From contig JAAXUP010000011.1 of NCBI GenBank assembly GCA_013335935.1, positions 1-40,750 of the forward strand: DNA of 40,750 nucleotides. The letters are read 5' to 3'. The first letter of the stretch is position 1; every line of letters starts with the position of its first letter. Below, piece by piece: positions 1,242 to 38,060 of this stretch. This DNA comes from Eubacteriaceae bacterium (GTDB lineage: Bacteria > Bacillota > Clostridia > Eubacteriales > Alkalibacteraceae). The position numbers were made by a program, and so were the translations under genes. The notes under the pieces were generated by a model. That model was not told the DNA's origin and did not search any database. It saw only the letters and a list, made by a program, of their open reading frames with translations.

Positions 1242-2816
1242 TCAGACCAGGTATTTCTTTAGGCAGTTTTCGAAATCTTCCTGGTAATCCTTTAGATATT
1301 CATAAAACGTCACATGTCTTTCTCTCAATACAAGTGCTACTTCAACCAAGAAGGCAGGAATGGTCTCCGCCAGCATGTCACCCTGTTCTTCAGCAAGATG
1401 GGTATCCTCCTGGCTTACTTTTCCCAACACATACAGCGCAAAAACATCCTCTGAAACCTCATTGATCTTCTTCTTTTTACCTTGAAACCCAATCTCGCAC
1501 ACTTGATGCCTGGCGCAAGAATTTATGCAGCCTGAAATGCTGACAGCGGGCAGAAGATCTTCCTCTAAAATTCCTTTTTCTTCAAACAAGTCCAAAATAT
1601 TCTTCAATAGCTTCTGACTCTGTTGAATGCCGATCTGACAAGTTGGGGTACCAATACAGCTTATGCTTCTTTTTAACCTTGTAGATTTCACGAGCTCGTT
1701 TGCTGCTGAAGATAATTCTCTTGCCTGTTCATTAGTCAAATTTCTGATGTACATGCTTTCATCCATCCCCAGATGGATTTGTGCCAGAGGAACGTGCTCA
1801 AGAAATTCTGCTATGCTTTTCAAATCCTCTGCTTTTAATATCCCTGCTATGGGATGAAGAATCAAAGTGTACAATCCTTTTTGTTTCTGTGATATCAGAT
1901 TCGCACTTTCTGTGATATCCATCACACCAACAGGTTCGACCTCCTGGTTAAGCTCCGGTTTTACGGTGACACCCAGATTCCCACTCTCCTTTACGAAAGA
2001 CAGGTGTTTTTCATAACAATCCAAAAAGGCTTTCTTTCCCATACGCTTCACGATATATCGTATCCGGGCTTTCCCCTTATTCTGATAATCGCCTTCTTCA
2101 ATAAACAAGTTTGTAATCGCTTCTATATGGTACAAAATATCTGAGGGGTCCACCAATTCTTCATAGGGAATACTGATCTCACCATTTGGTCCCAAACTGC
2201 CGCCGATATACAATTTAAAATACGTTTTTCCATTTTGTCTTACGGCGATAAATCCCAAATCGGCAATTGTCGCATTTGCGGTATCCTCCTGATTGTTTGA
2301 AAAGGCGACCTTCAGCTTTCTTGGAAGCTTATAGGTGTTCATTTTCGATATAAAATAATTGTTTACCCTAAGGGCGTACGGTGAAGGATCGAAAGCTTCG
2401 TCCTTATCCACTCCCGAAAGAGGTGACAACGCTACATTTCTTGGGAAATTTCCCCCTCCTCCCCGGGTAAACAGATCATTCTCCAGACTTTTTTTCATGA
2501 TGCTGATCACTTGATCAAACTGGAGGTCATGAAGTTGAATTGCCTGCCTGGTAGTGAGGTGGATGCTTCTCAGGGAAAAATCATATGCAAAATCTCGTAT
2601 CAGTTTTAAGGTCTTCCCATCGAGTAACCCCGACAGGATACGCAGTCTGATCATAAACAACTTGCCCCCACGCTGGGCATAAACTCCCATTCCACCTGAG
2701 ACTGCCTTAAACTCTGCGCTGGAAATCTCTCCATCAACAAATTTCTGGCCAACTTCCTCAAACTCAAGGATCTCTTTATAAAATGTTTCTTTTATCTCTT
2801 CAACGGTCTGTCCCAT
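1242..2816 (-). CDS. Ferredoxin-type siroheme sulfite (nitrite/sulfite) reductase
   Basis: Probably reduces sulfite to sulfide with six electrons, the last reductive step of sulfate assimilation. It has the NirA/Sir layout: a first ferrodoxin-like half, then the catalytic half with the coupled siroheme/4Fe-4S cysteines CIGTPTC (about residues 387-393) and GCINSC (430-434). The substrate-side basic motif TTRQAIQLH is near residue 88. Length (524 residues) fits a single-chain ferredoxin-dependent enzyme; there is no flavoprotein partner nearby. The start at 2816 is chosen because AGGAG lies 10 nt upstream. An ATG at 2825 would sit only 1 nt from that site. It is the last gene of the sulfate run, 118 nt after cysN across a hairpin and possible internal promoter. 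Sulfite rather than nitrite specificity is inferred from the neighbours. Confidence 0.88.
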   Translation of the reverse strand: MGQTVEEIKETFYKEILEFEEVGQKFVDGEISSAEFKAVSGGMGVYAQRGGKLFMIRLRILSGLLDGKTLKLIRDFAYDFSLRSIHLTTRQAIQLHDLQFDQVISIMKKSLENDLFTRGGGGNFPRNVALSPLSGVDKDEAFDPSPYALRVNNYFISKMNTYKLPRKLKVAFSNNQEDTANATIADLGFIAVRQNGKTYFKLYIGGSLGPNGEISIPYEELVDPSDILYHIEAITNLFIEEGDYQNKGKARIRYIVKRMGKKAFLDCYEKHLSFVKESGNLGVTVKPELNQEVEPVGVMDITESANLISQKQKGLYTLILHPIAGILKAEDLKSIAEFLEHVPLAQIHLGMDESMYIRNLTNEQARELSSAANELVKSTRLKRSISCIGTPTCQIGIQQSQKLLKNILDLFEEKGILEEDLLPAVSISGCINSCARHQVCEIGFQGKKKKINEVSEDVFALYVLGKVSQEDTHLAEEQGDMLAETIPAFLVEVALVLRERHVTFYEYLKDYQEDFENCLKKYLV

Positions 2817-2880
2817 TTTCTGCATTCTCCTCTACCTATAAATGTGCCACTTTTATGATCAGGATATCACTCATGGATTC

Positions 2881-2934: not shown

Positions 2935-4734
2935 CTACAGATAGTAATCAAGAATGACCTCGTGTTTTTTTAATAGTCTGCAGGCTTCTTCTACTGCTTC
3001 TCCAGTTTTCACACTGGCATCCGGTTCAAAAATATTAAAAGGTGTATCCTCAATATTGATGACGAGTATCTCATTGGGAAGATTCAGGAGTTTGAGCTTA
3101 TTCGCCTCGTGATCTTCCAAATTGTATATTGACGTAATGAATATCTGTCCGGAATCTGTCAAAATCCTGGCCATCTCGCCGATTTGTCTGATATTTTCAT
3201 CCCGGTCTTCATATTGAAGTAATGAATCGGAAGCAAGCCCATAGATAATGTTATTCACCCCCAGAAAGTATGCCTTGAAATTCAATTCAAATAATTTTTT
3301 CTCAATTTCCTTACCCACTCTTTGAATGTCCGATTGTGCACCTTCCTTGCCCGATGTTATAACAACAAACTTTGATTTATGACCATAGGCTTCATCCCTG
3401 GTTTTCGGATCAATAAATCCTTTTTCCCAATGAACTTCCCGATTTTTCACATGTTCAGATAAAGTATTTTCATTATCCTGCATGCTCTCAAGAATAATAC
3501 CACCTCCGGATATCTCATAGCTATCGACGATTACGAATCTACCTGTACTTTCGATGTCAGAAATTTTGTCAAATGCAACCGGTCTTACCGTATCAAATAT
3601 ACATTCCGCCACATCGTGCCTTTCGATCTGGTCTTTAAAACTATCAATATTAAGTTCAGCGGCATCAACAATATTTAGGACCTCTGCCAATCTGACCCCA
3701 ATATGCATGGTACCTATCTTCAACTTGTAATTCTTATTTTTGACCAGCGGAGCCTTCCCTACCCAGAAAATATTCGCTTTAAATCTCGAACTGGTTTGAG
3801 GCAGCTTTTCATTTGCCTTGACCATAAGTTCACCGGGTTTTATATAAATCTGTGTGGTTAACGTCACCCCAAGGGCTTCATCAGCTTTGAACACCGTCCT
3901 TTTAGAGATATTGAAGCCTTCAATACTTGCGATGATGCTTTTTTTATTGGAAGGCAGAAACAAAACCTCATCTCCAACTTTCACATTTCCGCTTAAAGCT
4001 GTACCGGCAACAATTCTTCTGTCATCACCATCCTGGGTAAATTTATAGATATCCTGAACAGGCATTCTGAAGGGCAATTCTTCTTTATTTTTACGATTTT
4101 CCAAACGATTTAGCTGTTTCAGAACATTTGGTCCATCATACCACATAGTGTTATTGGAATTGGCCGCGATGTTATCCCCCTTCAAAGCACTTATGGGAAT
4201 GAAATTTACAGGCTTGATATTGATCTTTGTTAGAAATTTTGTGAATTCTTCTTTGATCCTGTTAAAGATTTCTTCGTCGTAATCGATCATATCCATTTTA
4301 TTGACCAATACCACCACCTGCCTGATCCCCAGCATTGAAACAAGGTGTCCATGTCGTTTTGAGTTCTCCTGTATTCCCTCCTTGGCATCAATGACCAGAA
4401 GAGCAGCTTCCGCCCTGGATGCACCCGTGACCATGTTTTTCAAAAACTCAATGTGTCCGGGTGCGTCAATAATGATATAATCTCTACTTTCGGATTTGAA
4501 AAAGCATCTCGCGGTATCGATGGTGATCCCTTGAGCCTGTTCATCTTTTAAGGCATCAAGCAAGAAGGCATATTCAAAAGGCCTGGAATTCAAGCGGCAA
4601 AACTCCTTGACCGATTCCAGTTTGCCTTCCGGCAAGGAATTTGTATCTGCCAGGAGCTTGCCGATAACCGTACTTTTGCCATGATCGACATGACCCACTA
4701 TTACGATATTCATTTGTTCTCTGTCTGCTGCCAT
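2935..4734 (-). CDS. cysN: Sulfate adenylyltransferase large GTPase subunit (CysN) with degenerate APS-kinase-like tail
   Basis: GTPase subunit that drives ATP sulfurylase (sulfate + ATP to APS) together with CysD. GTP-binding motifs are intact: GHVDHGKST (14-22), GITID (69-73), DAPGH (90-94) and NKMD (145-148). EF-Tu-like barrel domains follow to about residue 425. Residues about 428-599 align with the APS kinase domain of CysNC fusions, for example [17 protein letters not shown]. But the P-loop position (about 459-469) reads [11 protein letters not shown] instead of the GxSGSGKST type, and the DGDNVRxGL segment has become GVNNIIYGL. Kinase activity is therefore unlikely. The start codon directly abuts the cysD stop codon (TAAATG), indicating translational coupling. 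CysN identity is sure; the dead-kinase reading is a well-supported inference. Confidence 0.9.
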
Positions 4735-5616
4735 TTACATATACCCATCCCTTCTGAGTTCTTCCAAGCCTCCGCCGCCATCCTTATCCTGGGCTCTACC
4801 GGATCTTTCTGCGATATTTGCGAATTTACCACTAACCAACTCTTCTATGATATCCTCAACATCCTTAGCATTTGATTCAACCGGGAGGGTGCATGGATAG
4901 CACCCCAGGGATCTATACCTCTTTCCTTCCCCCCGGTCAAAATACAGTGAGGTGACCGGTATATTTTCCCTTTGTATGTACTCCCAGATGTTTAACTCTG
5001 TCCAATCTAAAAGCGGATGAATTCTCACATGTGTTCCAGGTGCAAAATCTGTTTTATATTGATTCCAGAATTCTGGTGGCTGATCTCCAACATCCCAGTC
5101 GTTTTCTTTATCCCTAGGGGAGAAGTATCTTTCCTTTGATCGGCTGCCTTCCTCATCAGCTCTGACACCAACGATAACCCCAGTGTATTTATCTGTATTA
5201 TTATCAGGTATATATTTGCCTGTGGTGTGATCCATGATATATCTTGGCCATTCTCCGGAGAGAGTATGTTTCAATGCCTCTGACTTAAGTTCCTTGCAGC
5301 ATTCGATTCTCCCAACATTCCCATCCGGAAAAGTTCTTTTATTCTTCAGTGCTTCTTCATTTTCACCATAGATCATGGTGAGCTTCCATTCCTGAGTTAA
5401 CCGGTCTCTATACTCGATCATCTCAGGGATTTTGAAATGGGTATCCACATGTACCAAAGGGATGGGAACATGACCAAAAAATGCTTTTCTGGCAAGCCAT
5501 AAAAGTACTGTACTGTCCTTCCCTATGGACCAAAGCATGCAAATGCTCCTGAATTCCCGATAAGCCTCTCGTAGGATATAAACACTTTGTGCTTCCAGTT
5601 TATCTAAATGATCCAT
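4735..5616 (-). CDS. cysD: Sulfate adenylyltransferase small subunit (CysD)
   Basis: Catalytic PP-loop ATP pyrophosphatase-fold subunit of ATP sulfurylase, forming APS with CysN. The PP-loop SIGKDST (about 30-36) is the CysD form of the SGGKDS motif. Family blocks [43 protein letters not shown] and [11 protein letters not shown] are all present, and the C-terminus ends in the usual [14 protein letters not shown]-type stretch. Length of 293 residues is normal. AAGGAG lies 6 nt upstream of the ATG and overlaps the cysH stop codon, so the two genes are tightly coupled. Cytosolic. The assignment is secure. Confidence 0.95.
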
Positions 5617-5626
5617 AATTTTCTCC

Positions 5627-6361
5627 TTATCTGTAAATATTCAGGTCGCTATATCCTGGAACATGAAGCCCACATTCTTTTTTTTCTGGGCTTTCCCACC
5701 ACCATCTGCCGCTTCTTAAATCTTCACCAGGCGCTACAGCCTGGGTACAAGGCTGGCAGCCAACACTTTGAAAACCTCTTTCATAAAGTTTGCTGAAGGG
5801 TACAGACTCTTTTTTTAAATATTCCCAAACCTGATCTTCGCTCCAATATACAATTGGATTAACCTTTAGAAGATTATGATTATGATCCCACTCAAAAATT
5901 TCTGTCCTCTGTCTTGTTACCGACTGATCTCTTCGAAGCCCGCAGATCCAGGCATCAGCATTTGATAACGCTCGCTTAAGTGGTTTTACCTTTCGAATTT
6001 CACAGCATTTTTTTCTCAGATCTACGCTTTCATAAAATAGATTCGCTCCATGATGGGAGACGAGTTCCTCTACATCGCCACTTTCCGGTGAATATACTTT
6101 ATATTTGAAATGATATTTTTTTATCGTTTGGTCAAGAAGATCATAAGTTTCCTGGAAGTGTCTTCCCGTATCAATGAAAAATATTCTCGCTTCAGAATTG
6201 ACCTTAATGATCATGTCTGTCAAAATCTGATCTTCTATGGATAGACTTGAGGCTAAGACGACTTTCTCTTTTCCGACTTTTTCAAGAATATACCGAACTA
6301 TTTCCTGGGGTGATGCATCCCTAAATTTACTATTTAAAAACTCAAGATTTAATTTTTCCAT
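5627..6361 (-). CDS. cysH: Adenylyl-sulfate (APS) reductase, assimilatory, iron-sulfur type
   Basis: Reduces activated sulfate to sulfite using thioredoxin or a similar thiol donor. The enzyme carries the paired-cysteine cluster signature [12 protein letters not shown] (Cys119-Cys120) and CQPC (Cys202, Cys205), which marks the 4Fe-4S, APS-using branch of CysH rather than the cluster-free PAPS reductases. The C-terminal catalytic motif ECGLH is at about 229-233. The PP-loop region is the family form SSLSIEDQ (38-45). Length of 244 residues is normal. APS preference agrees with the absence of a functional APS kinase in this operon. The gene lies 37 nt after cysA and 10 nt before cysD. Confidence 0.92.
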
Positions 6362-6398: not shown

Positions 6399-7415
6399 TC
6401 ATATTGCATAATCATCAGGAGTGAACACTCTAAAATCTCTGGGCCTGACAAAGACTTTTTTCCTCTCGGCGAGCCCCAGATCTTTAAATACCTCTCTGCT
6501 TATTTCAGCTTCAATGAAATCTCCTGTATCAAGCCTTTTAAGCTCGATGTTTACGATGGGTCCGATTGCCCGGATAAAAAGTATCTCTGCTAGAGTAAAT
6601 TCACCTTCATCCTCTTCAAGTCTGATTTCGATATCGTGAGGTCTTGAATAGTTGATTATATTTTTGCCATCCTCCACTCTTCGGTGGAACAGATTCACAT
6701 TCCCAAGGAAATTGTAAACGAATGGATTCGCTGGATTATCATATACCTCTTCAGGTGTTCCAATCTGTTCAATTTTTCCCTGATTTAGGATGACGATCCT
6801 GTCAGCCACATCCAAGGCTTCCTCCTGATCGTGAGTGACAAACACACTGGTAATGGGATATTCATCATGAAGTTTTCTCAGCCATCTCCTTAGGTCCTTT
6901 CTTACCTTGGCATCAAGCGCTCCAAATGGTTCATCCAGCAAAAGCACTTTTGGTTCAACAGCAAGTGCCCGGGCAAGAGCTATTCGCTGCCTTTGTCCAC
7001 CAGAAAGCTGAGCAGGATAGCGGTTTGACAATTCTTCCATTTTCACCAGGGATAGAAGCTCATGTGTCTTTTGCCTGATAACTTCTTTAGAAGGTCTGAA
7101 CTTCCTGGGTCTCACCTTAAGTCCAAAAGCGATGTTTTCAAATACAGTCATATGCTTGAATAGCGCATAGTGCTGGAATACAAATCCTACTTTTCTGTCC
7201 TGAGTGCTTGTACCTGTATGATCCTCCCCGTCAAAGATAACGCTTCCAGTATCGGAAGATTCCAAACCTGCGATAATCCTAAGAAGTGTCGTTTTCCCAG
7301 AACCTGAAGGTCCCAAAAGGGCTACCAATTCTCCTGTTTCGATTTTTAAGTTTATTTCACTCAACGCTTTGAATGCTTCAAAATTCTTTGTGATGTTTAT
7401 TATTTCAATACTCAT
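6399..7415 (-). CDS. cysA: Sulfate/thiosulfate ABC transporter ATP-binding protein
   Basis: Powers sulfate import with the CysT/CysW permeases and the CysP binding protein, on the cytoplasmic face of the membrane. Walker [10 protein letters not shown], signature [16 protein letters not shown], Walker [13 protein letters not shown] and the switch histidine in [14 protein letters not shown] are all visible. A C-terminal regulatory extension of the CysA/PotA kind follows, including FLGNVNLF and SRPHDIEI. The start at 7415 is chosen because GGAGG lies 7 nt upstream; the longer frame from 7442 would begin without a ribosome site. At 338 residues the length is normal. Position between cysW and cysH supports sulfate rather than another anion. 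Confidence 0.93.
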
Positions 7416-7450
7416 ATTTGATCCTCCGATGTTTATTTCCATTAACTTTA

Positions 7451-8272
7451 TCAGTTGGATAATTTGTTTTGACTTTTAATTTTCCAATCAGCAAAATTTT
7501 TGATCAAAAGATTTATAATCGCCACAACGGTTAAAAGGGACGCAACAGCAAATGCTGCTGAAAATTGATATTCGTTATATAGTATTTCAATATGAAGAGG
7601 CAATGTGTTCGTCAGCCCCCTGATATGACCCGATACAACGGAAACCGCTCCGAATTCACCCGCAGTCCGGGCAGCTGTAAGAATCACTCCATATATTAGT
7701 CCCCACTTGATATTCGGCAGAGTGACCAGCAAAAATGTTTTCCATCCACTTGCTCCCAGTGTCAAAGCCGCTTCTTCTTCAGACGTGCCCTGGGCTTCCA
7801 TCAACGGGATAAGCTCTCTGGCAACAAAAGGGACCGTTACAAACAGTGTGGCAAGAATAATGCCCGGCGTGGCAAATATGATTTTAAGTCCCCATTCATT
7901 GAGAAGAGGAGCAAATAATCCATGACTTGTGCTAAACAAAAGTACAAAGATAAGACCAGCTACCACCGGAGAGATCGCAAATGGGAGATCAATTAATGTC
8001 AATATAATATTTTTTCCTTTAAAATCAAATTTGGTTACTGACCATGCTGCCATAATTCCAAAAATCGTGTTCAAGGGCACCGTCACAGCAATTGTTAAGA
8101 GTGTCAGCTTGATTGCCTTGATCGCCATAGGATCACTTATGGCCGCATAATATAATCCCCACCCTTTCTCAAATGCTTTGACAAAAACCGATAGAAGGGG
8201 CACGATTAATAGCAGCAGGAAAAAGCTCAAAGCGATAACAATCAATATGAAGCGAAACCCTTTATCTTTCAT
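7451..8272 (-). CDS. cysW: Sulfate ABC transporter permease CysW
   Basis: One of two membrane permeases of the sulfate importer. It shows a first membrane segment near residues 5-28 and about six in all. The permease EAA-loop for ATPase contact appears as [22 protein letters not shown], and [13 protein letters not shown] is typical of CysW. The start at 8272 gives a 273-residue protein whose ATG overlaps the cysT stop codon (ATGA), and GGGTGGA precedes it. The longer version from 8314 would add a charged 14-residue extension and a 46-nt overlap, which is less likely. Translational coupling to cysT is implied. Confidence 0.92.
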
Positions 8273-9105
8273 CTTCCACCCACCCTTTTTATTTTTCCGC
8301 CGCTTACCTTCCATTGAAAATAGTTTATTGAGAATAGAATCAGAAATGACATGACGAGCATTATTGCGGCTACCGCAGTTCCACCTGCATAATCATACTG
8401 CTCTAGTTTTGTCCTGATAAGAAGTGGTGCGATTTCCGTTTTAAAAGGCATGTTTCCTGATATAAAGACGACTGATCCGTATTCACCCAAAGCCCTTGAA
8501 AAAGCCAAAGCGAATCCTGTAATGATAGCCGGGAACATTTCCGGCAGTATCACTTTACGAAATATCTGTAATTTTGTTGCTCCAAGGCAGGATGCCGCTT
8601 CTTCAACCTCTTTGTCAAAGTTCTGAAGAACCGGTTGGACTGTCCTGACCACAAATGGAAAACTGATAAAAATCAAAGCAACTACTATTCCAAGGGGGGT
8701 GTATGATACTGTTATCCCCAGCGGTTCCAGAAATCTTCCGATCCAACCATTTGGCGCATAGAGCGTTGTAAGGGATATCCCTGCAACTGCTGTAGGCAGT
8801 GCAAAAGGCAAATCGATAAGTCCGTCCATGATTTTCTTTCCAGGGAAGGAATATCGTTCAATTACCCACGCCACAAGAAATCCAAAAAAAACGTTTATCA
8901 GCGCGGCTGCAAACGCTGTGGTAAAAGATACCTTAAGTGAAGATAGCACCCTCGGAGAGGATGCTATTTCCCACAACTTTTCAAATCCCAGGCTTGAACT
9001 ATTGAAAAATACCATTGAAACGGGTATAAGTACCAGCAAACTTAAATATAGCATTGAAAATCCAAATGTGATCCCAAAACCTGGGATTACGTTTTTCTTT
9101 TTCAT
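8269..9105 (-). CDS. cysT: Sulfate ABC transporter permease CysT
   Basis: Partner permease of CysW (also called CysU). About six hydrophobic segments, the family block IDLPFALPTAVAGI, the ATPase-contact loop EEAASCLGATKLQIFRKVILP and SRALGEYGSVVFISGN identify it. The start at 9105 is preferred because GGGAG lies 8 nt upstream, giving 278 residues; an ATG at 9129 lies upstream in frame but lacks a ribosome site. It follows the binding-protein gene by 26 nt and overlaps cysW by 4 nt, as in most sulfate permease operons. Confidence 0.92.
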   Translation of the reverse strand: MKKKNVIPGFGITFGFSMLYLSLLVLIPVSMVFFNSSSLGFEKLWEIASSPRVLSSLKVSFTTAFAAALINVFFGFLVAWVIERYSFPGKKIMDGLIDLPFALPTAVAGISLTTLYAPNGWIGRFLEPLGITVSYTPLGIVVALIFISFPFVVRTVQPVLQNFDKEVEEAASCLGATKLQIFRKVILPEMFPAIITGFALAFSRALGEYGSVVFISGNMPFKTEIAPLLIRTKLEQYDYAGGTAVAAIMLVMSFLILFSINYFQWKVSGGKIKRVGGR

Positions 9106-9131
9106 TAATTCAACTCCCTGATTTATCAAAA

Positions 9132-10196
9132 TTATTTTGCTTCATAGATCTGATCAAAAACTCCCCCATCGTTAAAATGTGTACTTTGTGCTTTGTCCCA
9201 ACCTCCGAACACTTCATCAATTGTAAATAGCTCCAGCTGGGGAAACTGTGCTTGATATTTTTTTGCTACATCCGCATTTCTTGGTCTGTAGAAATTTTTT
9301 GCTGCAATTTCCTGACCTTCCTCACCGTAAAGATATTCAAGGTAGGCTTCAGCCACTTTTCTGGTTCCTTTTTTATCGACTACCGAATCCACCACTGATA
9401 CAGGGGGTTCTGCAAGGATACTGACAGAGGGGATGACAATTTCAAATTTATCATCACCAAATTCTTTTACAGAGAGGAAGGCTTCATTCTCCCATGCGAT
9501 AAGCACATCACCTAGTCCTCTTTCAACAAATGTTGTAGTTGAGCCCCTGGCGCCGGAATCCAGCACAGGTACATTTTTGTACATTGCCTTCAGGAATTCC
9601 TCCCCTTGTTTTTCATCATTTCCGTTATTTTTCAGGGCATATCCTAACGCAGCAAGGTAATTCCATCTTGCTCCACCGGATGTTTTTGGATTAGGCGTGA
9701 TAACCGCTACTCCGTCCTTGGTCAAGTCATTCCAATCCTTGATGTTTTTAGGATTGCCTTTCCTGACCAGGAAAACAATCGTGGAAGTGTAGGGCGTGGA
9801 ATTTTCCGGCAGTCTTTCCTTCCAGTTTTCGTCGATCAATTTATCTTTCGTATTTATCGAATCGATATCGTAGGCAAGGGCTAATGTTACCACGTCTGCT
9901 TCATTGCCATCGATGACTGTTCTGGCTTGACTTCCAGATCCTCCATGGGATTGCTGTACGGTTACCTCTTGTCCGGTTTTTTCTTTCCAATACTTTGAAA
10001 ATGCTATGTTGTACTCCTGATAGAGCTCTCTTGTTGGGTCATAAGAAACGTTCAGAAGCGTTACAGGTTCCTTCCCTGTTTCGTTATTTCCGTTTGCTGC
10101 TTTTCCAGAAGAGCATCCGGCAAGCACCGATGCAATGAGTAGTGCAGACACGACTACCAATGTTGTTTTTTTATGTTTTCCGCCGAATATATTCAA
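9132..10196 (-). CDS. cysP: Sulfate-binding lipoprotein of the ABC importer
   Basis: Captures sulfate outside the membrane and delivers it to CysT/CysW. It begins with a lipoprotein signal (KHKKTT, a hydrophobic stretch, then LAGC with the lipidated cysteine at about residue 28) and a short polar linker. Family blocks are [13 protein letters not shown] near the mature N-terminus, [33 protein letters not shown]-like [18 protein letters not shown] and the C-terminal FRPRN-like FYRPRN. The start codon is TTG with GGGAG 6 nt upstream; no ATG or GTG lies near the start of the signal peptide. At 354 residues it is normal. Whether it is Sbp-like or CysP-like (sulfate versus thiosulfate) cannot be told from sequence. 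Confidence 0.9.
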
Positions 10197-27979: not shown

Positions 27980-29377
27980 ATGAAAAAAGAATTAAGCAAA
28001 ACCATTAAAACCTTTTATGGCATCGGTGACCTGGGTTTCTCACTGATGACAAGCGTCGAACTGTTATTTTTTGTATTTTTCTTAACCAATGTAGCTAAGT
28101 TTTCTTTACCAATGGTTGCACTGATCGGATCCGTAACCAGTATCGTTGACGCAATTCTTTCACCTTTCTACGGCGCTTACATTACAGGAACCAAAGCATT
28201 AAAATGGGGTCGGTATCGCTCCTGGATGCTGATTGCTCCACCTCTTGTTGTGGTGCTTTTCATGGTTCAGTTCTCCAAGGTCAGTACATCAGAACCAATA
28301 TCAGCCCTCGTTGTCTGTATTGGATTTATTTTAAGTCATATCGTCTGGAATCTTGCATGGGTCGCAAATGTTTCCTTGATACCTTTACTTGGCAAAACAC
28401 CGGATGACCGTGCACTTCTTTCTGCAAGACGTGGTACCTGGTCCAGTTTGTCAGGTGTATTCTTCTCTTACATTGGAATGCCTTTAGCTGTTCTTCTGGG
28501 AGCGATTACTAATAATGAAGTATTGGGCTTCACCTTGCTGGCAGGAATTTTGGCAATGACCATGATGATCGGATATTGGATTGTATTCAAAATGACTGAT
28601 GGTTATGAGACAACCGGAGTAGAAGTCGTTAAAGCCGGAACAGTCAAAGCTCATGAAAAAGTACCTGTATCCATCATGCTTAAAAGTTTATTTCAAAATG
28701 TACCTCTCCTTGTTTTGCTACTCAGTGACTTTTTTAGATATATATCATTCTTTATAGGTCTTGCCGCTTCAGCATACTACTTTACCTATGTTGTGCAAAA
28801 CATGGCTATATTCCCAGTTTTTCTATTGCTGACAGCAATAGCAGGCGTAGTTGGTTCGTATATAAGCAGCTATACTTCCCAAAAATTTTCAAACAGAACG
28901 ACTTCCATCGTCAGTTTATTTGGCCTTGGAATTTCACTTATGATATGTAAGTTTTTAGGTTTTCAATACATACCTTTCCTAGTATTCTACCTTGCAGCCA
29001 GATTATTCCTTGGCGTCCTTAATGCATCTTTGGTAGCTCTTTATTCAGATGTTGTTACTTATGGCGAATGGAAAACCGGCGAGAACGCTTCCGGATTTAT
29101 CATGGGAATCATGAATGTTTCTCTGAAATCAGCAATCATTTCCAGAGGCTTGCTTATCCCAATTGTACTCGCCTCTGTTGGCTTCGTTGCTGGCGCAGAT
29201 CCTGCCACTGCTTCTTTGGCACTTCAAAATGGAATAATCAATATATTTGTAACAATACCAGGTTTATGTGCACTTGCCAGTGGAGTAATATTGACACTGG
29301 GATATAAACTGACAAAAGCAAAATTAGCTGGTTATCAGGCTGATATCGATGAAAGAAAAAATCAGGCAGCCGCATAA
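27980..29377 (+). CDS. GPH-family (MelB-like) cation symporter, paralog 1
   Basis: Twelve-segment secondary transporter of the glycoside-pentoside-hexuronide group in the major facilitator superfamily, in the cell membrane. Family marks are KWGRYRSW (75-82, the MelB KFKPW-type loop), the aspartate in SIVDAILSPFYG (Asp57) and YGEWKTGENASGF in the second half. The position equal to MelB Asp59 is Ser61, so cation coupling may differ. Length of 465 residues is shared by all three paralogs. AAGGAGAGTGTTTGA precedes the ATG. The gene has its own promoter, structured leader and terminator. The substrate is unknown. The divergent URO-D gene and nearby TetR genes suggest uptake of a specific non-preferred compound, possibly methylated or aromatic, but this is speculation. 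Confidence 0.85.
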   Translation: MKKELSKTIKTFYGIGDLGFSLMTSVELLFFVFFLTNVAKFSLPMVALIGSVTSIVDAILSPFYGAYITGTKALKWGRYRSWMLIAPPLVVVLFMVQFSKVSTSEPISALVVCIGFILSHIVWNLAWVANVSLIPLLGKTPDDRALLSARRGTWSSLSGVFFSYIGMPLAVLLGAITNNEVLGFTLLAGILAMTMMIGYWIVFKMTDGYETTGVEVVKAGTVKAHEKVPVSIMLKSLFQNVPLLVLLLSDFFRYISFFIGLAASAYYFTYVVQNMAIFPVFLLLTAIAGVVGSYISSYTSQKFSNRTTSIVSLFGLGISLMICKFLGFQYIPFLVFYLAARLFLGVLNASLVALYSDVVTYGEWKTGENASGFIMGIMNVSLKSAIISRGLLIPIVLASVGFVAGADPATASLALQNGIINIFVTIPGLCALASGVILTLGYKLTKAKLAGYQADIDERKNQAAA

Positions 29378-29416
29378 TTAACTGCACAAGCTAAGCTAAA
29401 AAGAATGATTACCAAT

Positions 29417-29463
29417 AACTTCCCAGTCTTTTGAAGAACTTTCAAAGAACTGGGAAGTTTTTT
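29417..29463 (+). terminator. Terminator of symporter cassette 1
   Basis: Stem AACTTCCCAGT/ACTGGGAAGTT (29417-29427 with 29449-29459), continued inward by CTTTTGAA/TTTCAAAG, then a run of T. Confidence 0.9.
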
Positions 29464-29482
29464 AATATTCTAAATTATTTGG

Positions 29483-29511
29483 TTGTATTATTTTGAATTT
29501 TAAACTATAAT
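29483..29511 (+). promoter_or_regulatory. Promoter of the second symporter cassette
   Basis: TTGTAT (29483-29488), 17-base spacer, TATAAT (29506-29511). It matches the promoters of cassettes 1 and 3 in spacing and in flanking AATTTT-type bases, and starts 20 nt after the previous terminator. It leaves about 175 nt of leader. Confidence 0.75.
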
Positions 29512-29602
29512 AATTTTAAACAGAGTTAATATTGCTTAAATGGATTATTTTACTATATTTCTTAAACATACTGCGTATCCCATATTTACATCCCCTGCAC
29601 CG

Positions 29603-29670
29603 TTATACCTGGTTCTCTATTTATTCCTTAAAATGAGTGATGGATTGAATAGTTGGACTATAACGTATAA
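29603..29670 (+). ncRNA. Candidate cis-regulatory leader structure, copy 2
   Basis: TTATAC (29603-29608) faces GTATAA (29665-29670). After the CTG linker, GTTC (29612-29615) faces GGAC (29655-29658), a pairing kept by one G-U wobble where copies 1 and 3 have GAAC. The 3' linker is again 6 bases. An alternative 7-bp pairing CGTTATA/TATAACG (29601-29607 with 29659-29665) is also possible. No cre-like site is seen in this copy. The ATG is 22 nt after the structure. Confidence 0.5.
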
Positions 29671-29692
29671 ATAATTTAAGGAGAGTGTTTAC

Positions 29693-31090
29693 ATGAAAAA
29701 AGAGTTGAGCAAAACTATTAAAACCTTTTATGGCGTCGGTGACCTGGGCTTCTCGCTGATGACAAGCGTCGAACTATTTTTCTTTGTATTTTTCTTAACC
29801 AATGTAGCGAAGTTTTCTTTACCAATGGTTGCCCTGATCGGATCGGTAACCAGTATCGTTGATGCTGTACTATCGCCATTCTATGGAGCTTACATTACAG
29901 GAACCAAAGCACTAAAATGGGGACGATACCGTTCCTGGATGCTGATCGCACCACCTGTTGTGGTGATACTGTTCATGCTTCAGTTCTCCAGGGTCAGTAC
30001 GTCGGAACCAATTGCTGCCTTAGTCGTATGTATCGGATTTATTCTAAGTCATATCGTCTGGAATCTGGCATGGGTTTCCAATGTATCACTGATTCCCCTG
30101 CTTGGCAAAACTCCGGACGACCGTGCGTTGCTGTCTGCCAGACGTGGTACATGGTCCAGTTTATCAGGTGTTTTCTTCTCTTATATTGGAATGCCTTTAG
30201 CACTTCTCCTTGGAAAGGTTACAAATAATGAAGTATTGGGCTTTACCTTGCTTGCAGGGATATTGGCCCTTACCATGATGATCGGATACTGGACGGTATT
30301 TAAAATCACGGACGGTTACGAGGCAACTGGTTTAGAAGCTGTAGGCTCAGGGACTGTGAAGAAACATGAAAAAGTGCCTGTGTCAGTGATGCTAAAAAGC
30401 TTGTTTCAGAATGTACCCCTCATTTCATTGTTGGTCAGTGACTTTTTCAGATGGATATCATTCTTTATCATGACAGCTGCTGCTGCGTACTACTTTACCT
30501 ATGTGGTGCAAAACATGGCACTGTTCCCAATTTATATGTTGCTTGGCGCAGTCGCAGGAGTAATCGGCGCATATGCCAGCAGCTATGTTTCCCGCAAATA
30601 TTCAAATCGAACCACATCCATTGCTGGTTTATTTCTACTAGGAGTTTCACTTGTTGTGTGTAAATTTGTTGGATTTCAACTCATTCCTTTCTTCATATTT
30701 GTATTGATCGCCAGAATGTGCCTGGGTGTTCTGAATGCATCTTTAGTGGCACTATATTCCGATGTTGTTACTTATGGCGAGTGGAAAACCGGCGAGAATG
30801 CTTCCGGGTTTATCATGGGAATCATGAATGTGTCTCTTAAATCCGCAATAATTTCAAGAGGTACCATCATTCCTTTTGTACTAGCCTCTGTCGGCTTCGT
30901 AGCTGGAGCAGATCCTGCTACAGCATCATTGGCACTTCAAACTGGCGTAATTAATGTATTTGTATTCATCCCAGGGTTATGCGCTCTTGCCAGTGGCGTA
31001 CTGCTGACTTTAGGATACAGACTGACAAAAGAAAAACTGGCCGGATACCAGGCAGAAATCGATGCAAGGAAAAATACCTCTGCTGCATAA
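29693..31090 (+). CDS. GPH-family (MelB-like) cation symporter, paralog 2
   Basis: A close paralog of the preceding gene: nearly the same N-terminal 100 residues and the same 465-residue length, with most changes in segments 7-10 (for example MTAAAAYYFTYV and LLLGVSLVVCKFVGF). KWGRYRSW, SIVDAVLSPFYG and YGEWKTGENASGF are kept, again with Ser in place of the second MelB aspartate. DNA differences between copies are largely synonymous, so the duplication is not very recent. The ribosome site AAGGAGAGTGTTTAC is almost identical to that of copy 1. A separate promoter and terminator make it independently expressed. Substrate is unknown and may overlap with that of copy 1. Confidence 0.85.
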   Translation: MKKELSKTIKTFYGVGDLGFSLMTSVELFFFVFFLTNVAKFSLPMVALIGSVTSIVDAVLSPFYGAYITGTKALKWGRYRSWMLIAPPVVVILFMLQFSRVSTSEPIAALVVCIGFILSHIVWNLAWVSNVSLIPLLGKTPDDRALLSARRGTWSSLSGVFFSYIGMPLALLLGKVTNNEVLGFTLLAGILALTMMIGYWTVFKITDGYEATGLEAVGSGTVKKHEKVPVSVMLKSLFQNVPLISLLVSDFFRWISFFIMTAAAAYYFTYVVQNMALFPIYMLLGAVAGVIGAYASSYVSRKYSNRTTSIAGLFLLGVSLVVCKFVGFQLIPFFIFVLIARMCLGVLNASLVALYSDVVTYGEWKTGENASGFIMGIMNVSLKSAIISRGTIIPFVLASVGFVAGADPATASLALQTGVINVFVFIPGLCALASGVLLTLGYRLTKEKLAGYQAEIDARKNTSAA

Positions 31091-31134
31091 AAAAATATAA
31101 ACTAAACCTTAAAATAATTAGTATGATTAAACTG

Positions 31135-31187
31135 AAAACTTTCTGGATTTCAAATTGCGCTTGAAGTCCGGAAAGTTTTATTTTTTT
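31135..31187 (+). terminator. Terminator of symporter cassette 2
   Basis: A long stem of about 19 pairs with two wobbles (31135-31153 with 31161-31179), loop ATTGCGC, followed by A and seven T. Confidence 0.9.
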
Positions 31188-31289
31188 GTTTTATGACCCT
31201 TAAATCATTCCATGTAAGGGTATCATTTAGTTAATTGCTGGTATTAAAATTTAAATAATAAAAATAACTGTTTTTTTTCAAAAAGTTCA

Positions 31290-31318
31290 TTGTAATAATA
31301 TTATTTTTAAACTATAAT
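31290..31318 (+). promoter_or_regulatory. Promoter of the third symporter cassette
   Basis: TTGTAA (31290-31295), 17-base spacer, TATAAT (31313-31318), the same architecture as the other two cassettes. The leader before the ATG is about 190 nt and holds the cre-like site, the paired elements and a mini reading frame. Confidence 0.75.
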
Positions 31319-31394
31319 GATTTTATACAAACCTAATATTATTTAATTGTGTGATTTTATCAAATTCTATTAGGTATTTATTTTTCACAAGCCA

Positions 31395-31408
31395 TGTAAT
31401 GGTTTACA
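31395..31408. promoter_or_regulatory. cre-like site in the third symporter leader
   Basis: TGTAATGGTTTACA, identical to the site at 27892 and one mismatch from the cre consensus. It lies about 70 bases after the likely transcription start. Confidence 0.45.
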
Positions 31409-31421
31409 CCTAATTGGAGCG

Positions 31422-31489
31422 TTATACCTAGTTCAATACCCATCTTAAATACTGTGGAGGAAAGCATGGGAAAGAACTATTGAGTATAA
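31422..31489 (+). ncRNA. Candidate cis-regulatory leader structure, copy 3
   Basis: TTATAC (31422-31427) faces GTATAA (31484-31489). After the CTA linker, GTTC (31431-31434) faces GAAC (31474-31477), again with a 6-base 3' linker. Inside the 39-base loop CCCAT and ATGGG can pair. The ATG is 23 nt beyond the structure, the same spacing as in copies 1 and 2. Confidence 0.5.
31466..31483 (+). other. Possible five-codon leader reading frame
   Basis: ATG GGA AAG AAC TAT TGA, preceded by GGAGG 5 nt upstream. Its codons cover the 3' arm of the inner helix and stop just before the outer 3' arm, so its translation would disturb the leader structure. Not conserved in the other two leaders. Confidence 0.3.
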
Positions 31490-31512
31490 AAAAATTAAAG
31501 GAGAGTGTATTG

Positions 31513-32910
31513 ATGAGAAAAGAATTAAGCAAAACCCTTAAAACCTTTTATGGCATCGGCGATTTAGGCTTTGCAATGATGACAAGCGTGGAATTGTTTT
31601 TCTTCGTGTTCTTCTTAACTAATGTAGCTAAATTTTCTTTACCGATGGTTGCACTGATCGGATCCATCACAAGTATCGTAGACGCAATATTATCACCTGT
31701 ATATGGAGCATGGCTTTCTGGAACAAAACCGCTGAAATGGGGCCGCTATCGATCCTGGATGCTGATCGGACCACCAATCGTTGTGGTACTTTTCATGTTA
31801 CAGTTCACAAGAGTCAGCGCAAATGAAACAATATCTGCTGTAGTTGTCTGTTTAGGATTTATTTTAAGTCATATCATTTGGAACCTTGCCTGGGTATCCA
31901 ATGTTACTATGATCACTGTTCTGGGTAAAACTCCTGAAGAACGTGGACTTTTAGCTTCAAGACGTGGTACCTGGAATAATATGTCTGGTGTTTTCTTCTC
32001 TTATATCGGAGCCCCTTTGGCACTTTACCTTGGAACCGTAACCAATAATCCGGTATTAGGTTATACGCTGCTTGCAGGTGTAATGGCATTTGCTATGCTA
32101 TGCGGCTACTGGACAGTCTTTAAAATGACAGATGGTTACGAAGATGTGGTCACTGAGGTAACTTCATCAGGAACTGCTCCAAAGCATGATAAAGTACCTG
32201 TCTCTGCCATGTTGAAGAATTTATTCCAAAATCCTCCGCTGATTGTTTTACTGGTATTCGACTTTTTCAGATGGATGGCATTTTTCATTCTAACAGCTTC
32301 CGCTGCATTCTATTTCACATATGTAGCGAAGGATATGACTAAATTTCCGATGTATGTCCTGCTTGGTGCCATCGCTGCTGTAATCGGAGCATATTTGGCG
32401 GGTCCTATGTCTAATAAGCTATCCACACGAACAACTTCCATCATCGGATTGTTTTTTGGCGGTGCATTTTTGGTTGCTGCAAAGTTCGTAGGATATCAGT
32501 ATGTACCTTTCCTCATAATGTTACTGATGGCAAGGCTGTTCTTAGGTGTGCTCACTGCATCTAATGTTGCACTTTACTCAGATGTTGTAACCTATGGTGA
32601 ATGGAAGACCGGCGAAAATGCTTCCGGTTTTATCATGGGCATCATGAATGTGTCTTTAAAAACTGCAGTCATTGCCAGAGGTACCGTTATCCCGGCAGTG
32701 CTGGCAGCAGCAGGTTTTGCTGCATCTGCAGATCCTGCAACAGCCTCTAAGGCTATCACGGATGCGGTATTAAACGTAACGGTATTTATTCCTGGCATGC
32801 TGCTGCTTGTTGGTGGTGTGATCATGATCCTGGGATACAAACTCACAAGAGAAAAACTTACTCAATATCAGACAGAAATTGATGCTAGAAAGAAAACAAC
32901 AGTTGCATAA
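31513..32910 (+). CDS. GPH-family (MelB-like) cation symporter, paralog 3
   Basis: Third member of the tandem set and the most diverged: AWLSGTKPLKWGRYRSWMLI instead of AYITGTKALKWGRYRSW, a changed central loop (DVVTEVTSSGTAPKHDKV) and many changes in the last four segments. The length is again 465 residues, and the Asp-to-Ser change relative to MelB (SIVDAILSPVYG) is shared. The start at 31513 is chosen because AAAGGAG lies about 9 nt upstream; the in-frame ATT-side extension to 31480 would run through the leader structure. Divergence suggests a different but related substrate, or a different affinity. Confidence 0.85.
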   Translation: MRKELSKTLKTFYGIGDLGFAMMTSVELFFFVFFLTNVAKFSLPMVALIGSITSIVDAILSPVYGAWLSGTKPLKWGRYRSWMLIGPPIVVVLFMLQFTRVSANETISAVVVCLGFILSHIIWNLAWVSNVTMITVLGKTPEERGLLASRRGTWNNMSGVFFSYIGAPLALYLGTVTNNPVLGYTLLAGVMAFAMLCGYWTVFKMTDGYEDVVTEVTSSGTAPKHDKVPVSAMLKNLFQNPPLIVLLVFDFFRWMAFFILTASAAFYFTYVAKDMTKFPMYVLLGAIAAVIGAYLAGPMSNKLSTRTTSIIGLFFGGAFLVAAKFVGYQYVPFLIMLLMARLFLGVLTASNVALYSDVVTYGEWKTGENASGFIMGIMNVSLKTAVIARGTVIPAVLAAAGFAASADPATASKAITDAVLNVTVFIPGMLLLVGGVIMILGYKLTREKLTQYQTEIDARKKTTVA

Positions 32911-34480: not shown

Positions 34481-37400
34481 TTAAATTGCCGCCACGACTT
34501 TACCAAACTCTTTTTCTACGAAGTCTGTGGATTCCTTCATCATAAACATCGGTCCGTCATTTACTATGGCAAGGTCAGCTTTCTTACTCTCTGTAGCAAA
34601 CCCTCCTGTATACAGTACGTCCGGTCCTGCTTTCGGCCAGATGACAGAGCCTTCAAGCATGTAAACTCCGGAATATTCCGGTACAGCTTTGGATAATTCT
34701 TCGGTGATTTCTGCCGCACTGGCATATCCTGCTTTTCTTCCTAAGATCACCATCAGGTCGCTGATGACTTTCCAGTTTTCCTTGCTGGAAAGTGCCGGAA
34801 TCGCTTTTCGCACTTTCTGGATCCTTCTCTCAGAATTTGTGAAGGTGCCCTCTGATTCAGCATAGCTTACCGCTGGCAGCACCACATCCGCTTTCTCGGC
34901 AGTTGGCGTCATGTAAAGGTCTTGAACAACCAGGAATTCCAGGTCATCGATTTCTTTCGCCGAAATATCTTCGCCGAAAACCATCAACCCTTTGATTTCT
35001 TTGGAAGCCATCCCTTTAAGAACTTCGTTGTTGTCTTTGTCGATACCCATATCTGCAATTCCCTGGCTGTTGTTTTTAGGCTTAAGTTGAATGATTCCTC
35101 TTCTCGCCTTCCCAATATTTCCAGATACGACTGCGATATCGGCGATAAGTTTTGCCCCATCAGCGGTTACATAATTCTGATCGAAGATGATCATTGGTTT
35201 CTTTGCATTCTTGTACATGTCCGCTACCCCTAGCGCAGCTTCTGATACGGATAGATCTCCAAGGCTTCCCTTTAGTTCATCCAGACCGTTTGCATTTGCA
35301 GGAGCACACCCAGCGTCGAGAAGAGCTTTTAGTATTCCTTTGAGAAGATTTAGGTCATTTTCTGCATCGATCTTTTTCACTGCCCAATCATCGGCCTGTG
35401 AATTGATGTCATTGACAACAACAAGCTTAGATCCGTTAGCAACCGCTTCTTTAATTTTCAGTGCTGCGATGGTATGGTCCTTCATCACATCACCTCCAAT
35501 AAGAAGCATCATGTCCGTGTTTTTAATTTCTTCAAAGGTGTTGGTTGAAGCATCATATCCAAGAACATCTTTTATTCCGCCATATGTCCTGTTAAAGGAT
35601 GTGATATTGTCCGTTCCCAGGTATTCTGATCCCAGTTTTTTTGCCAGGAATATTTCTTCATTCGTATATCTGTCTGATACAGCAATTGCGACGGCTTTGC
35701 CTCCGCCAAGCATTTTAATGCTTTGCATTTTTTTGCCGGCTGCCCTTAAGGCTTCCTCCCAGCTTGTTTCCACAAGCTTGCCATCTTTTCTCACCATAGG
35801 AGATATGATCCTTGTCTTCTGGTTGGAAGCATCGTATCCAAATCTTCCTTTAACACAGAGAAGTCCATTGTCTACGGTACTGTCCTTATCTGGAAGTGCC
35901 CTATAGAGCTTGTCTCCTTTGGTCTGAATATTGATGTTGCAGCCTACGGAGCAGAAAGAGCAAACCGTCTTTGTCTCAACCTGATGAACCGGAACAGATT
36001 TATCGATTTTAAGTCTTTCCTGGATCGCTCCAACGGGGCATACGCTTACACATTGTCCGCAGGAAATACAAACTGTATCGCACAGGGGCAGGTCAAGTGA
36101 TGGTTTTACCACCGTATCAAAGCCTCTGCTGACTAAGCCTAATGCTCCATTATCCATGACTTCATCACAAACCCTGACGCAAAGACCGCAAAGTATGCAT
36201 TTGTCTGTATTTCTTATAATGAAAGGATGTCCGTCGCCAACCTGTCTGTTGTGCGTTTCTCCAGCAAATATTTCTGGCGTAACATTGTAATCATTGGCAT
36301 ATTCCACAAGCTTGCATTCGAATACGTCTCCGCAGCCACACTCTAAACATCTTTTTGCGTCTTCAATGGCTTGTTCAGGGGTGTATCCATCGACAATCTC
36401 TTCAAAATTCCGCTTTCTTTCTTCCGGCTTCAAGTGCCCCATGTGTGGTCTTTTAGCAATTTTTTTATCTTTGAAGTCCTGTTCGGTTACGTCTTCTCTT
36501 GTTACATAATATGGCTTCACATAGGGAACCGTTTCCCCCTGAAGATATTTATTGATCACATCAGCTGCTTTTTTTGCATCACCGATGGCTTCTATCGCAA
36601 TGCCGGCTCCATCATTGATGGCATCCCCTCCGGCAAAGACCCCAGTTAAGCTTGTCAAGAACGTGCTCTCATCCGTTGCAATAGTATTCCACTTGGTCGC
36701 TTCAATGCTTTCCAGACCAGTGAGATCAACCCCTTGTCCTATGGCTGCTATGATAAGATCTACGTCCAGTATTTCAATTTCACCTTCTATAGGCACCGGT
36801 CTTCTTCTTCCACTGGCATCGGCTTCTCCAAGTTCCATTTTCTGCAGCTTGATTTTAGCAGCCTTGCCATTGTCCTCGATGATTTCCATTGGTGCCACCA
36901 GGAATTTAAAGATCACGCCTTCTTCTTCAGCTTCCACGATTTCTATTTCCTCAGCTGGCATTTCCTCTTTGGTTCTTCTATATAAGATATAAACTTCTTT
37001 TGCTCCCAGTCGTACGGCCGTTCTGCAGGCATCCATAGCGGTATTTCCGCCGCCTACAACCGCTACCTTGTCTCCGATTTCCATGTTCTCGTTTAATGTA
37101 GCTTTTCTCAAGAAATCGATTCCGCCGATTACCCCTTCAAGATTTTCTCCCGGAGTTCTCATTTTTGAACTTGTCCATGCGCCAACAGCAACATACATGG
37201 CATCGTTTTGGCTTCTCAGATAGTCAAAATCAACATCTCTGCCAATTTTAACATTGTTGACAAGTTTCGCCCCCATCTTTTCAATGACGCCTACTTCCTG
37301 ATCAACGATATCTTTTGGGAGCCTGTACTGAGGAATCCCATATCTGAGCATTCCGCCCATCTTAGGCATCTGATCGTATATGGTCACTGCGTGGCCAGCC

Positions 37401-38041: not shown

Positions 38042-38060
38042 ATTCTTCACTCCTACCAGA

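Follow-up and report, generated by a model that had tools for sequence, protein, structure and literature searches.

Filamentous fungi possess an ATP sulfurylase with an inactive APS-kinase-like domain, to which a regulatory role on the enzyme is assigned (PMC3734648, PMC3779200, PMC2275785). The ATP sulfurylase of yeast likewise bears a kinase-like domain, without a defined function (PMC3779200). In a published survey, fusions of CysN and CysC (NodQ) were told from CysN by means of the family PF01583 (PMC1780047). A dead APS-kinase domain in CysN was not found described in the open-licence literature, the field covered here, with subscription journals mostly outside it. The present analysis concerns such a domain in a stretch of 40,750 nucleotides from a Eubacteriaceae bacterium (GCA_013335935.1, contig JAAXUP010000011.1), hereafter the window, and its relatives in other Bacillota.

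The sulfate assimilation locus

The gene cysN (2935-4734, minus strand) encodes 599 residues, of which residues 1-420 constitute the GTPase subunit of sulfate adenylyltransferase and are followed by a dead APS-kinase domain. The first part is a normal CysN with its GTPase motifs, the G1 motif reading GHVDHGKS, and matches the NCBIfam model TIGR02034 with 341.3 bits (cut-off 336.1) as well as the structure 1zun_B (E 1.2e-73). Family score, GTPase motif and the adjacent cysD all identify the protein as CysN, i.e., an EF-1A-like GTPase and not an ATP sulfurylase of the Sat/Met3 type. The catalytic subunit is encoded directly upstream by cysD (4735-5616, minus strand; PRK05253, 356.6 bits), and next to it lies cysH (5627-6361, minus strand) for an APS-type reductase (TIGR02055, 263.8 bits against a cut-off of 235.3). 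CysH features CC at positions 119-120 and CQPC at 202-205; the Fe-S cysteines C119, C120, C202 and C205 and the C-terminal catalytic C230 are aligned in 28/28 CysH rows, in agreement with the first-pass annotation, which had recognized an APS-type CysH with paired cysteines. On the other side of cysN, a NirA-like nitrite/sulfite reductase (1242-2825, minus strand) was detected with PF01077 (E 1.9e-44), its best NCBIfam model being PRK09567 with 186.8 bits, under the cut-off of 523; it probably serves this pathway as its sulfite reductase. These four genes form one minus-strand sulfate assimilation block, upstream of which (6399-10196) a putative ABC transporter ATPase, two permeases and a substrate-binding protein were named by look and position.

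Besides its role as catalytic subunit, CysD deserves attention for its cysteines. C106, C107, C239 and C242 (CC and CYPC; minus-strand codons 5299-5301, 5296-5298, 4900-4902 and 4891-4893) occupy the alignment columns of the four Fe-S ligands in APS-type CysH, and an alanine stands in that of the CysH catalytic cysteine. CC and CxxC occur at these columns in 63 of the 68 CysD proteins examined and in 28/28 CysH. In the five CysD proteins without these cysteines, which pair with the five CysN of the GSVDDGKS type, the columns read Y, T, C, L. CysD may accordingly be regarded as a candidate Fe-S-containing ATP sulfurylase subunit, and a search of the open-licence literature yielded no paper on a CysD with such cysteines.

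Elsewhere in the window, three MFS_2 sugar-type transporters of 465, 465 and 476 residues stand in a row (27980-32910), and the minus strand at 34481-39809 encodes a molybdopterin oxidoreductase of 1189 residues with Fe-S and pyridine-nucleotide domains, adjoining a NuoF-like subunit. The oxidoreductase and its neighbor resemble an electron-bifurcating formate dehydrogenase.

A degenerate APS-kinase domain at the C-terminus of CysN

The tail comprises the 171 CysN residues 429-599 (2938-3450, minus strand; stop codon at 2935-2937) and is the sole PF01583 match in the genome. The match to this family, APS_kinase, is clear (E 2.4e-10; 41.1 bits, cut-off 21.1) and spans profile positions 4-81 of 152 only, since the second half of the tail is much changed by deletion of the lid segment. 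With the adenylyl-sulfate kinase model PRK03846, E 1.4e-17 was obtained, yet the 64.1 bits lie below the cut-off of 163. Sequences of APS kinases in the PDB match the tail down to E 6.5e-8. An AlphaFold2 model of the tail, calculated from an input of 17 sequences (the window and named public loci), reached a pLDDT of 76.6 and a pTM of 0.74. Its best matches are APS kinases, with CysC (4rfv) as the top Foldseek match (E 1.7e-8) and a VIA Z-score of 17.4 over 156 residues at 2.3 A for human PAPS synthetase 1 (1xnj). An APS-kinase fold is hence predicted for the tail, and the comparison of a structure prediction with CysC, which the first-pass annotation had suggested, turned out in favor of kinship. 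The model of full-length CysN was poor (pLDDT 59.4) and was not used for domain contacts. Chance resemblance to APS kinase was ruled out by the Pfam, PDB sequence, Foldseek and VIA matches, and an unrelated fold was ruled out for the predicted tail model, as APS kinases match it best.

The state of the active site was assessed in an alignment of 58 dead tails (26 of clade A, the lineage of the window, 23 of group B, 5 of group D and 4 of group E) with 50 intact kinases. Residue names are those of Mycobacterium tuberculosis CysC as given in PMC4373884, transferred by motif position and not by superposition. The site of the lost P-loop is an 11-residue stretch (3328-3360, minus strand; CysN residues 459-469) without GxxxxGK[ST]. 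The P-loop lysine is missing in 26/26 A tails and present in 50/50 intact kinases, and some B tails retain GxxxxGKK. LGVNN replaces LDGDN at CysN residues 491-495 (3250-3264, minus strand), with a one-residue deletion and loss of the catalytic aspartate. Throughout the 49 tails of A and B, the DGDN loop lacks one residue, the equivalents of the catalytic Asp480 and of the phosphosulfate Arg483 are gone (with lysine for the latter in two B rows), the lid segment, which closes the active site of APS kinases, is deleted and Pro525 is changed to leucine; Asp480 and Arg483 are retained in 50/50 intact kinases. Four derived changes are common to 49/49 A and B tail sequences.

The APS-contact side chains of CysC are Lys456 (via water), Asp480, Arg483, Phe492, Arg497, Lys562 and Phe576 (PMC4373884), and of these seven only Arg497 is retained in the tail of the window. 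Lys562 and Phe576, the contacts of the lid, are lost in 49/49 A and B tails, and the Arg497 equivalent is present in 25/26 A tails and 13/23 B tails. It is located in the alpha-2 helix of 20 residues (3148-3207, minus strand; CysN residues 510-529). Further alpha-2 residues of intact kinases, Glu499, Arg502, Arg503 and Glu506, are each found in 23/23 B tails and in 15, 21, 2 and 25 of 26 A tails, respectively. The lost residues suggest a tail without working kinase chemistry. The motif letters and coordinates of the first-pass annotation were correct, the motifs lying at residues 459-469, 491-495 and 510-529, and its description of a pseudo-kinase fused to ATP sulfurylase agrees with the predicted fold, the missing catalytic features and the lack of any other PF01583 match in the genome.

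Distribution and pathway context

Tail matches were obtained in 42 of 391 genomes in a class-wide search, intact kinases counted in, and at E 1e-12 a phylum-wide profile search gave matches for 48 of 398 genomes. In the latter, A and B tails scored about 140 bits and up and intact CysC below 92 bits, and the tails of group D (about 76-125 bits) overlapped the range of intact CysC. Since many genomes share the dead state, a sequencing artefact or a local pseudogene was ruled out. The 16 loci in the named collection belong to Acetivibrio, Ruminiclostridium, Alkalibaculum, Gracilibacter, other Bacillota and one Planctomycetota MAG. This MAG (L067:4979-8519) features the clade-A set of CysH, CysD and dead-tailed CysN with a tail identity of 39%, possibly by lateral transfer or as a mis-binned contig. 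In the assemblies of Acetivibrio straminisolvens and A. mesophilus (L053:7019-8519, L054:6720-8519), the open frame of CysN is broken, which may represent assembly error or decay.

Clade A and group B live with different pathways. CysH occurs in 17/17 clade-A genomes, with CysD and CysN nearby in the loci mapped, and neither an APS kinase other than the dead tail nor a Sulfotransfer_3 protein was found in any of the 17. The dead tail passes the Pfam APS_kinase cut-off in 14 of them, so these Clostridia would be credited with a PAPS synthesis that they probably lack. In group B, CysH was found in 0/22 genomes, absence meaning no match to the CysH of the window at E 1e-15 in a search for the CysH-type reductase only. 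A separate intact CysC occurs in 20/22 group-B genomes, the exceptions being G248 and G167 with 78 and 77% completeness, and 18/22 have a Sulfotransfer_3 protein. CysC directly adjoins cysDN in several B loci, and in L036 the Sulfotransfer_3 gene adjoins CysC-cysDN. Both systems are combined in one genome, G734: contig 27 carries an A-type CysN next to CysH, and on contig 17 a B-type CysN lies in the vicinity of CysC and of a sulfotransferase match; this genome was counted in neither group. Two genomes searched alongside group B (G318, G336) were counted as the intermediate group E. The Fisher tests (2e-11, 3e-9 and 2e-7) treat genomes as independent, which genomes are not, and were given no weight.

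A survey for co-occurrence of the tail with APS-type CysH had been proposed in the first-pass annotation, together with the view that the tail fits a pathway of direct APS reduction. The pairing holds throughout clade A, where no other APS kinase occurs, but as an explanation of the tail it fails in group B, which carries the homologous tail without CysH. A tie of tail and CysH as a general rule was thus ruled out.

The tails of group D (five genomes) are more eroded. Its loci L177-L180 contain CysC, a flavoprotein, a ferredoxin, CysD and CysN in a row, the flavoprotein of L179 being assigned by NCBIfam to the AprA-type APS reductase subunit, and the same kind of flavoprotein occurs in G336 of group E. 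L034/L035 and L177-L180 share this set of AprA-like flavoprotein, ferredoxin, intact CysC, CysD and a CysN with a very or half-eroded tail. AprBA-like APS reduction beside a PAPS-making enzyme is an odd combination. A search with the CysN core among the 398 phylum genomes further revealed some CysN whose tail, about 150 residues long, is unrelated. Bacillota CysN of this kind (L208-L215, e.g., L212:1048-2733) measure about 560-580 residues and end in a C-terminal tail CFDEYYY...; two of the unrelated tails were tested and gave no NCBIfam match. Eight such CysN are contained in the core tree, and three genomes have CysN open frames of 431-510 residues.

Origin of the dead domain

For the core tree, CysN open frames above 415 residues were used if 330 or more residues aligned and the core was not nearly identical to another, which left 77 rows. 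The kinase tree has 108 rows, omits the eight unrelated tails and admitted stand-alone CysC only with P-loop and DGDN, so that "intact" holds there by definition. A more careful tree contained 24 of the 49 A and B tails and 28 of the 50 intact rows, picked for spread. A branch with a support of 98 sets the 58 dead tails apart in the 108-row tree, a grouping that long branches could help to produce. The careful tree separates A and B tails from intact kinases with 100/100 and recovers clade A with 100/100, and it places clade A inside group B with moderate support (85/82); B alone formed one group in 10% of the bootstrap trees. The shared deletions and the change of Pro525 to leucine provide evidence independent of any tree.

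The core tree contains the dead tail in all 26 clade-A rows and would by itself require seven changes in the state of the tail, a number due in part to intact fusions that fall among dead ones. Three intact fused kinases (L161, L040 and L121) have CysN cores nested among dead-tailed ones and were read as re-fusions, because their kinase domains group with stand-alone CysC. Those of L045-L047 form their own branch among the intact kinases. Several independent losses of the kinase are not needed by the kinase trees, and the seven changes of the core tree are partly read as later fusions. The kinase chemistry was most likely lost once, in an ancestor common to a large set of Bacillota CysN. As the dead tails form one group and A nests in B, the domain probably died before the pairing with CysH, in a lineage with a separate CysC, which runs against the earlier explanation of the kinase loss by direct APS reduction.

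Selection and conservation

Among eight pairs of dead-tailed CysN with dS below 1 in both parts, the tail dN/dS is 0.047-0.108 in five and 0.31-0.38 in the other three, all from one Ruminiclostridium group; the core values of the same eight pairs are 0.02-0.07. Group D pairs gave tail values of 0.21-0.29, and in most pairs the core is the slower-evolving part. Purifying selection acts on the majority of tails, with relaxation in two groups. In L011, L012 and L013 (Ruminiclostridium papyrosolvens-like), the tails feature internal deletions and have lost the PF01583 match in the genome search, which together with the dN/dS of 0.31-0.38 is decay in progress.

Four columns (L111, G101, L53 and E50) are invariant in the 49 A and B tails, and new residues such as Leu111, Phe54 and Tyr22 are fixed or nearly so. 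Clade-A tails carry conserved motifs of their own, with the strongest constraint on strand beta-3 and helix alpha-3. Conservation of the alpha-3 helix (16 residues; 3076-3123, minus strand) amounts to 0.84 in A, 0.64 in B and 0.56 in intact kinases, and that of the 21-residue linker into the tail (3376-3438, minus strand) to 0.69, 0.68 and 0.52, respectively.

Possible roles of the tail

The reading we favor, if only somewhat above even chances, is that of a pseudo-APS-kinase which has lost its chemistry and is kept in CysN in a non-catalytic capacity, most likely for assembly. An APS-kinase domain fused to CysN would have lost its chemistry in a Bacillota ancestor and would then have been kept as a non-catalytic assembly module; in the lineage of the window, where no PAPS-making enzyme was found in the clade-A genomes, APS would be made by CysDN and reduced directly by CysH. 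Assembly is the most likely job of the tail because the alpha-3 helix and the linker are constrained, alpha-2 and alpha-3 being helices of the dimer interface in M. tuberculosis CysC (PMC4373884). Against this, the conserved helices may reflect folding alone, alpha-3 is less conserved in group B, and the tail is decaying in places, i.e., in the Ruminiclostridium group and group D. Moreover, the Bacillota CysN with unrelated tails or with frames of 431-510 residues imply that some CysN do without such a module. Decay is also what a passive remnant without any role would undergo, and the faster evolution of the tail in most pairs and the dN/dS of 0.2-0.4 in two groups fit this alternative. It is nevertheless quite unlikely in view of the low dN/dS (0.05-0.11) in five of eight close pairs, the invariant columns, the newly fixed residues and the presence of the tail in every clade-A row of the core tree. 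Persisting kinase activity with an unusual nucleotide site, to which the passed Pfam cut-off and the GxxxxGK stretch of some B tails might point, is extremely improbable, considering that lid, catalytic aspartate and phosphosulfate Arg483 are missing in every A or B tail and that 20/22 B genomes retain a separate intact CysC.

A regulatory function, in which CysDN would be tuned through binding of APS, PAPS or another nucleotide to the dead domain, is less likely. It has a precedent in the domain of the Penicillium ATP sulfurylase (PMC3734648, PMC3779200), and the P. chrysogenum enzyme matches the tail model with Z 14.0-14.4; the Arg497 equivalent persists in nearly all A tails and GxxxxGKK in some B tails. 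The loss of Asp480, Arg483, the lid and its contacts in all A and B tails, the loss of the P-loop lysine in all A tails and the failure to find a PAPS-making enzyme in clade-A genomes speak against it. The fungal sensor domain retains the equivalents of the aspartate and the arginine, which likewise counts against a sensor in CysN. The first-pass annotation had considered a channeling of APS to CysH. That the tail docks CysH or passes APS on is suggested by the constant company of CysH in clade A, its nearness to CysD and CysN and the motifs peculiar to clade-A tails, but this hand-off is very unlikely: it cannot be the general role, because the homologous tail is found on B CysN without CysH, and clade A nests in B. 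It could only be a lineage-specific, later use in clade A. A broader proposal, rather doubtful at present, regards the dead domain as a swappable docking platform on an oxygen-sensitive CysDN, where pairing of pseudo-kinase and kinase would recruit CysC as the APS consumer in group B and a rebuilt surface with the new alpha-3 motif would recruit CysH in clade A; given the four cysteines of CysD, the whole complex may contain an Fe-S cluster. If true, one CysDN scaffold would serve either reduction or sulfation. The role of the pseudo-APS-kinase, for which an assembly module is preferred here, can be tested in two systems and even within one genome, G734, which has both.

Comparison with known systems

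Within bacteria, stand-alone CysC shares fold and family with the tail, which differs by the loss of its catalytic elements. The CysNC / NodQ proteins of M. tuberculosis and Sinorhizobium resemble the CysN of the window in carrying a C-terminal CysC domain, and PRK05506 is its closest full-length NCBIfam model (433.3 bits against a cut-off of 715); their kinase domain is active, whereas that of the window is dead. The five GSVDDGKS-type fusions examined retain P-loop and DGDN. The kinase-like domain of yeast ATP sulfurylase (1j70, 1g8f) is similar to the predicted tail with Z 9.4, but it belongs to an enzyme of the Sat/Met3 type and is structurally further from the tail than intact APS kinases are. 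The closest parallel is offered by P. chrysogenum ATP sulfurylase (1i2d, 1m8p), with which the CysN of the window appears, by its sequence, to share an inactive APS-kinase-fold domain at the C-terminus of an ATP sulfurylase. The fungal enzyme, however, is of the Sat/Met3 type, homo-oligomeric and unrelated to the GTPase CysDN, and its domain binds PAPS (PMC3734648, PMC3779200), while in the bacterial tail the lid and most of the APS-contact residues are gone. An inactive APS-kinase domain, known on the fungal enzyme, is found here on a non-homologous bacterial enzyme of the GTPase type, where it has most likely been dead since an early ancestor and has yet been retained in unlike pathways.
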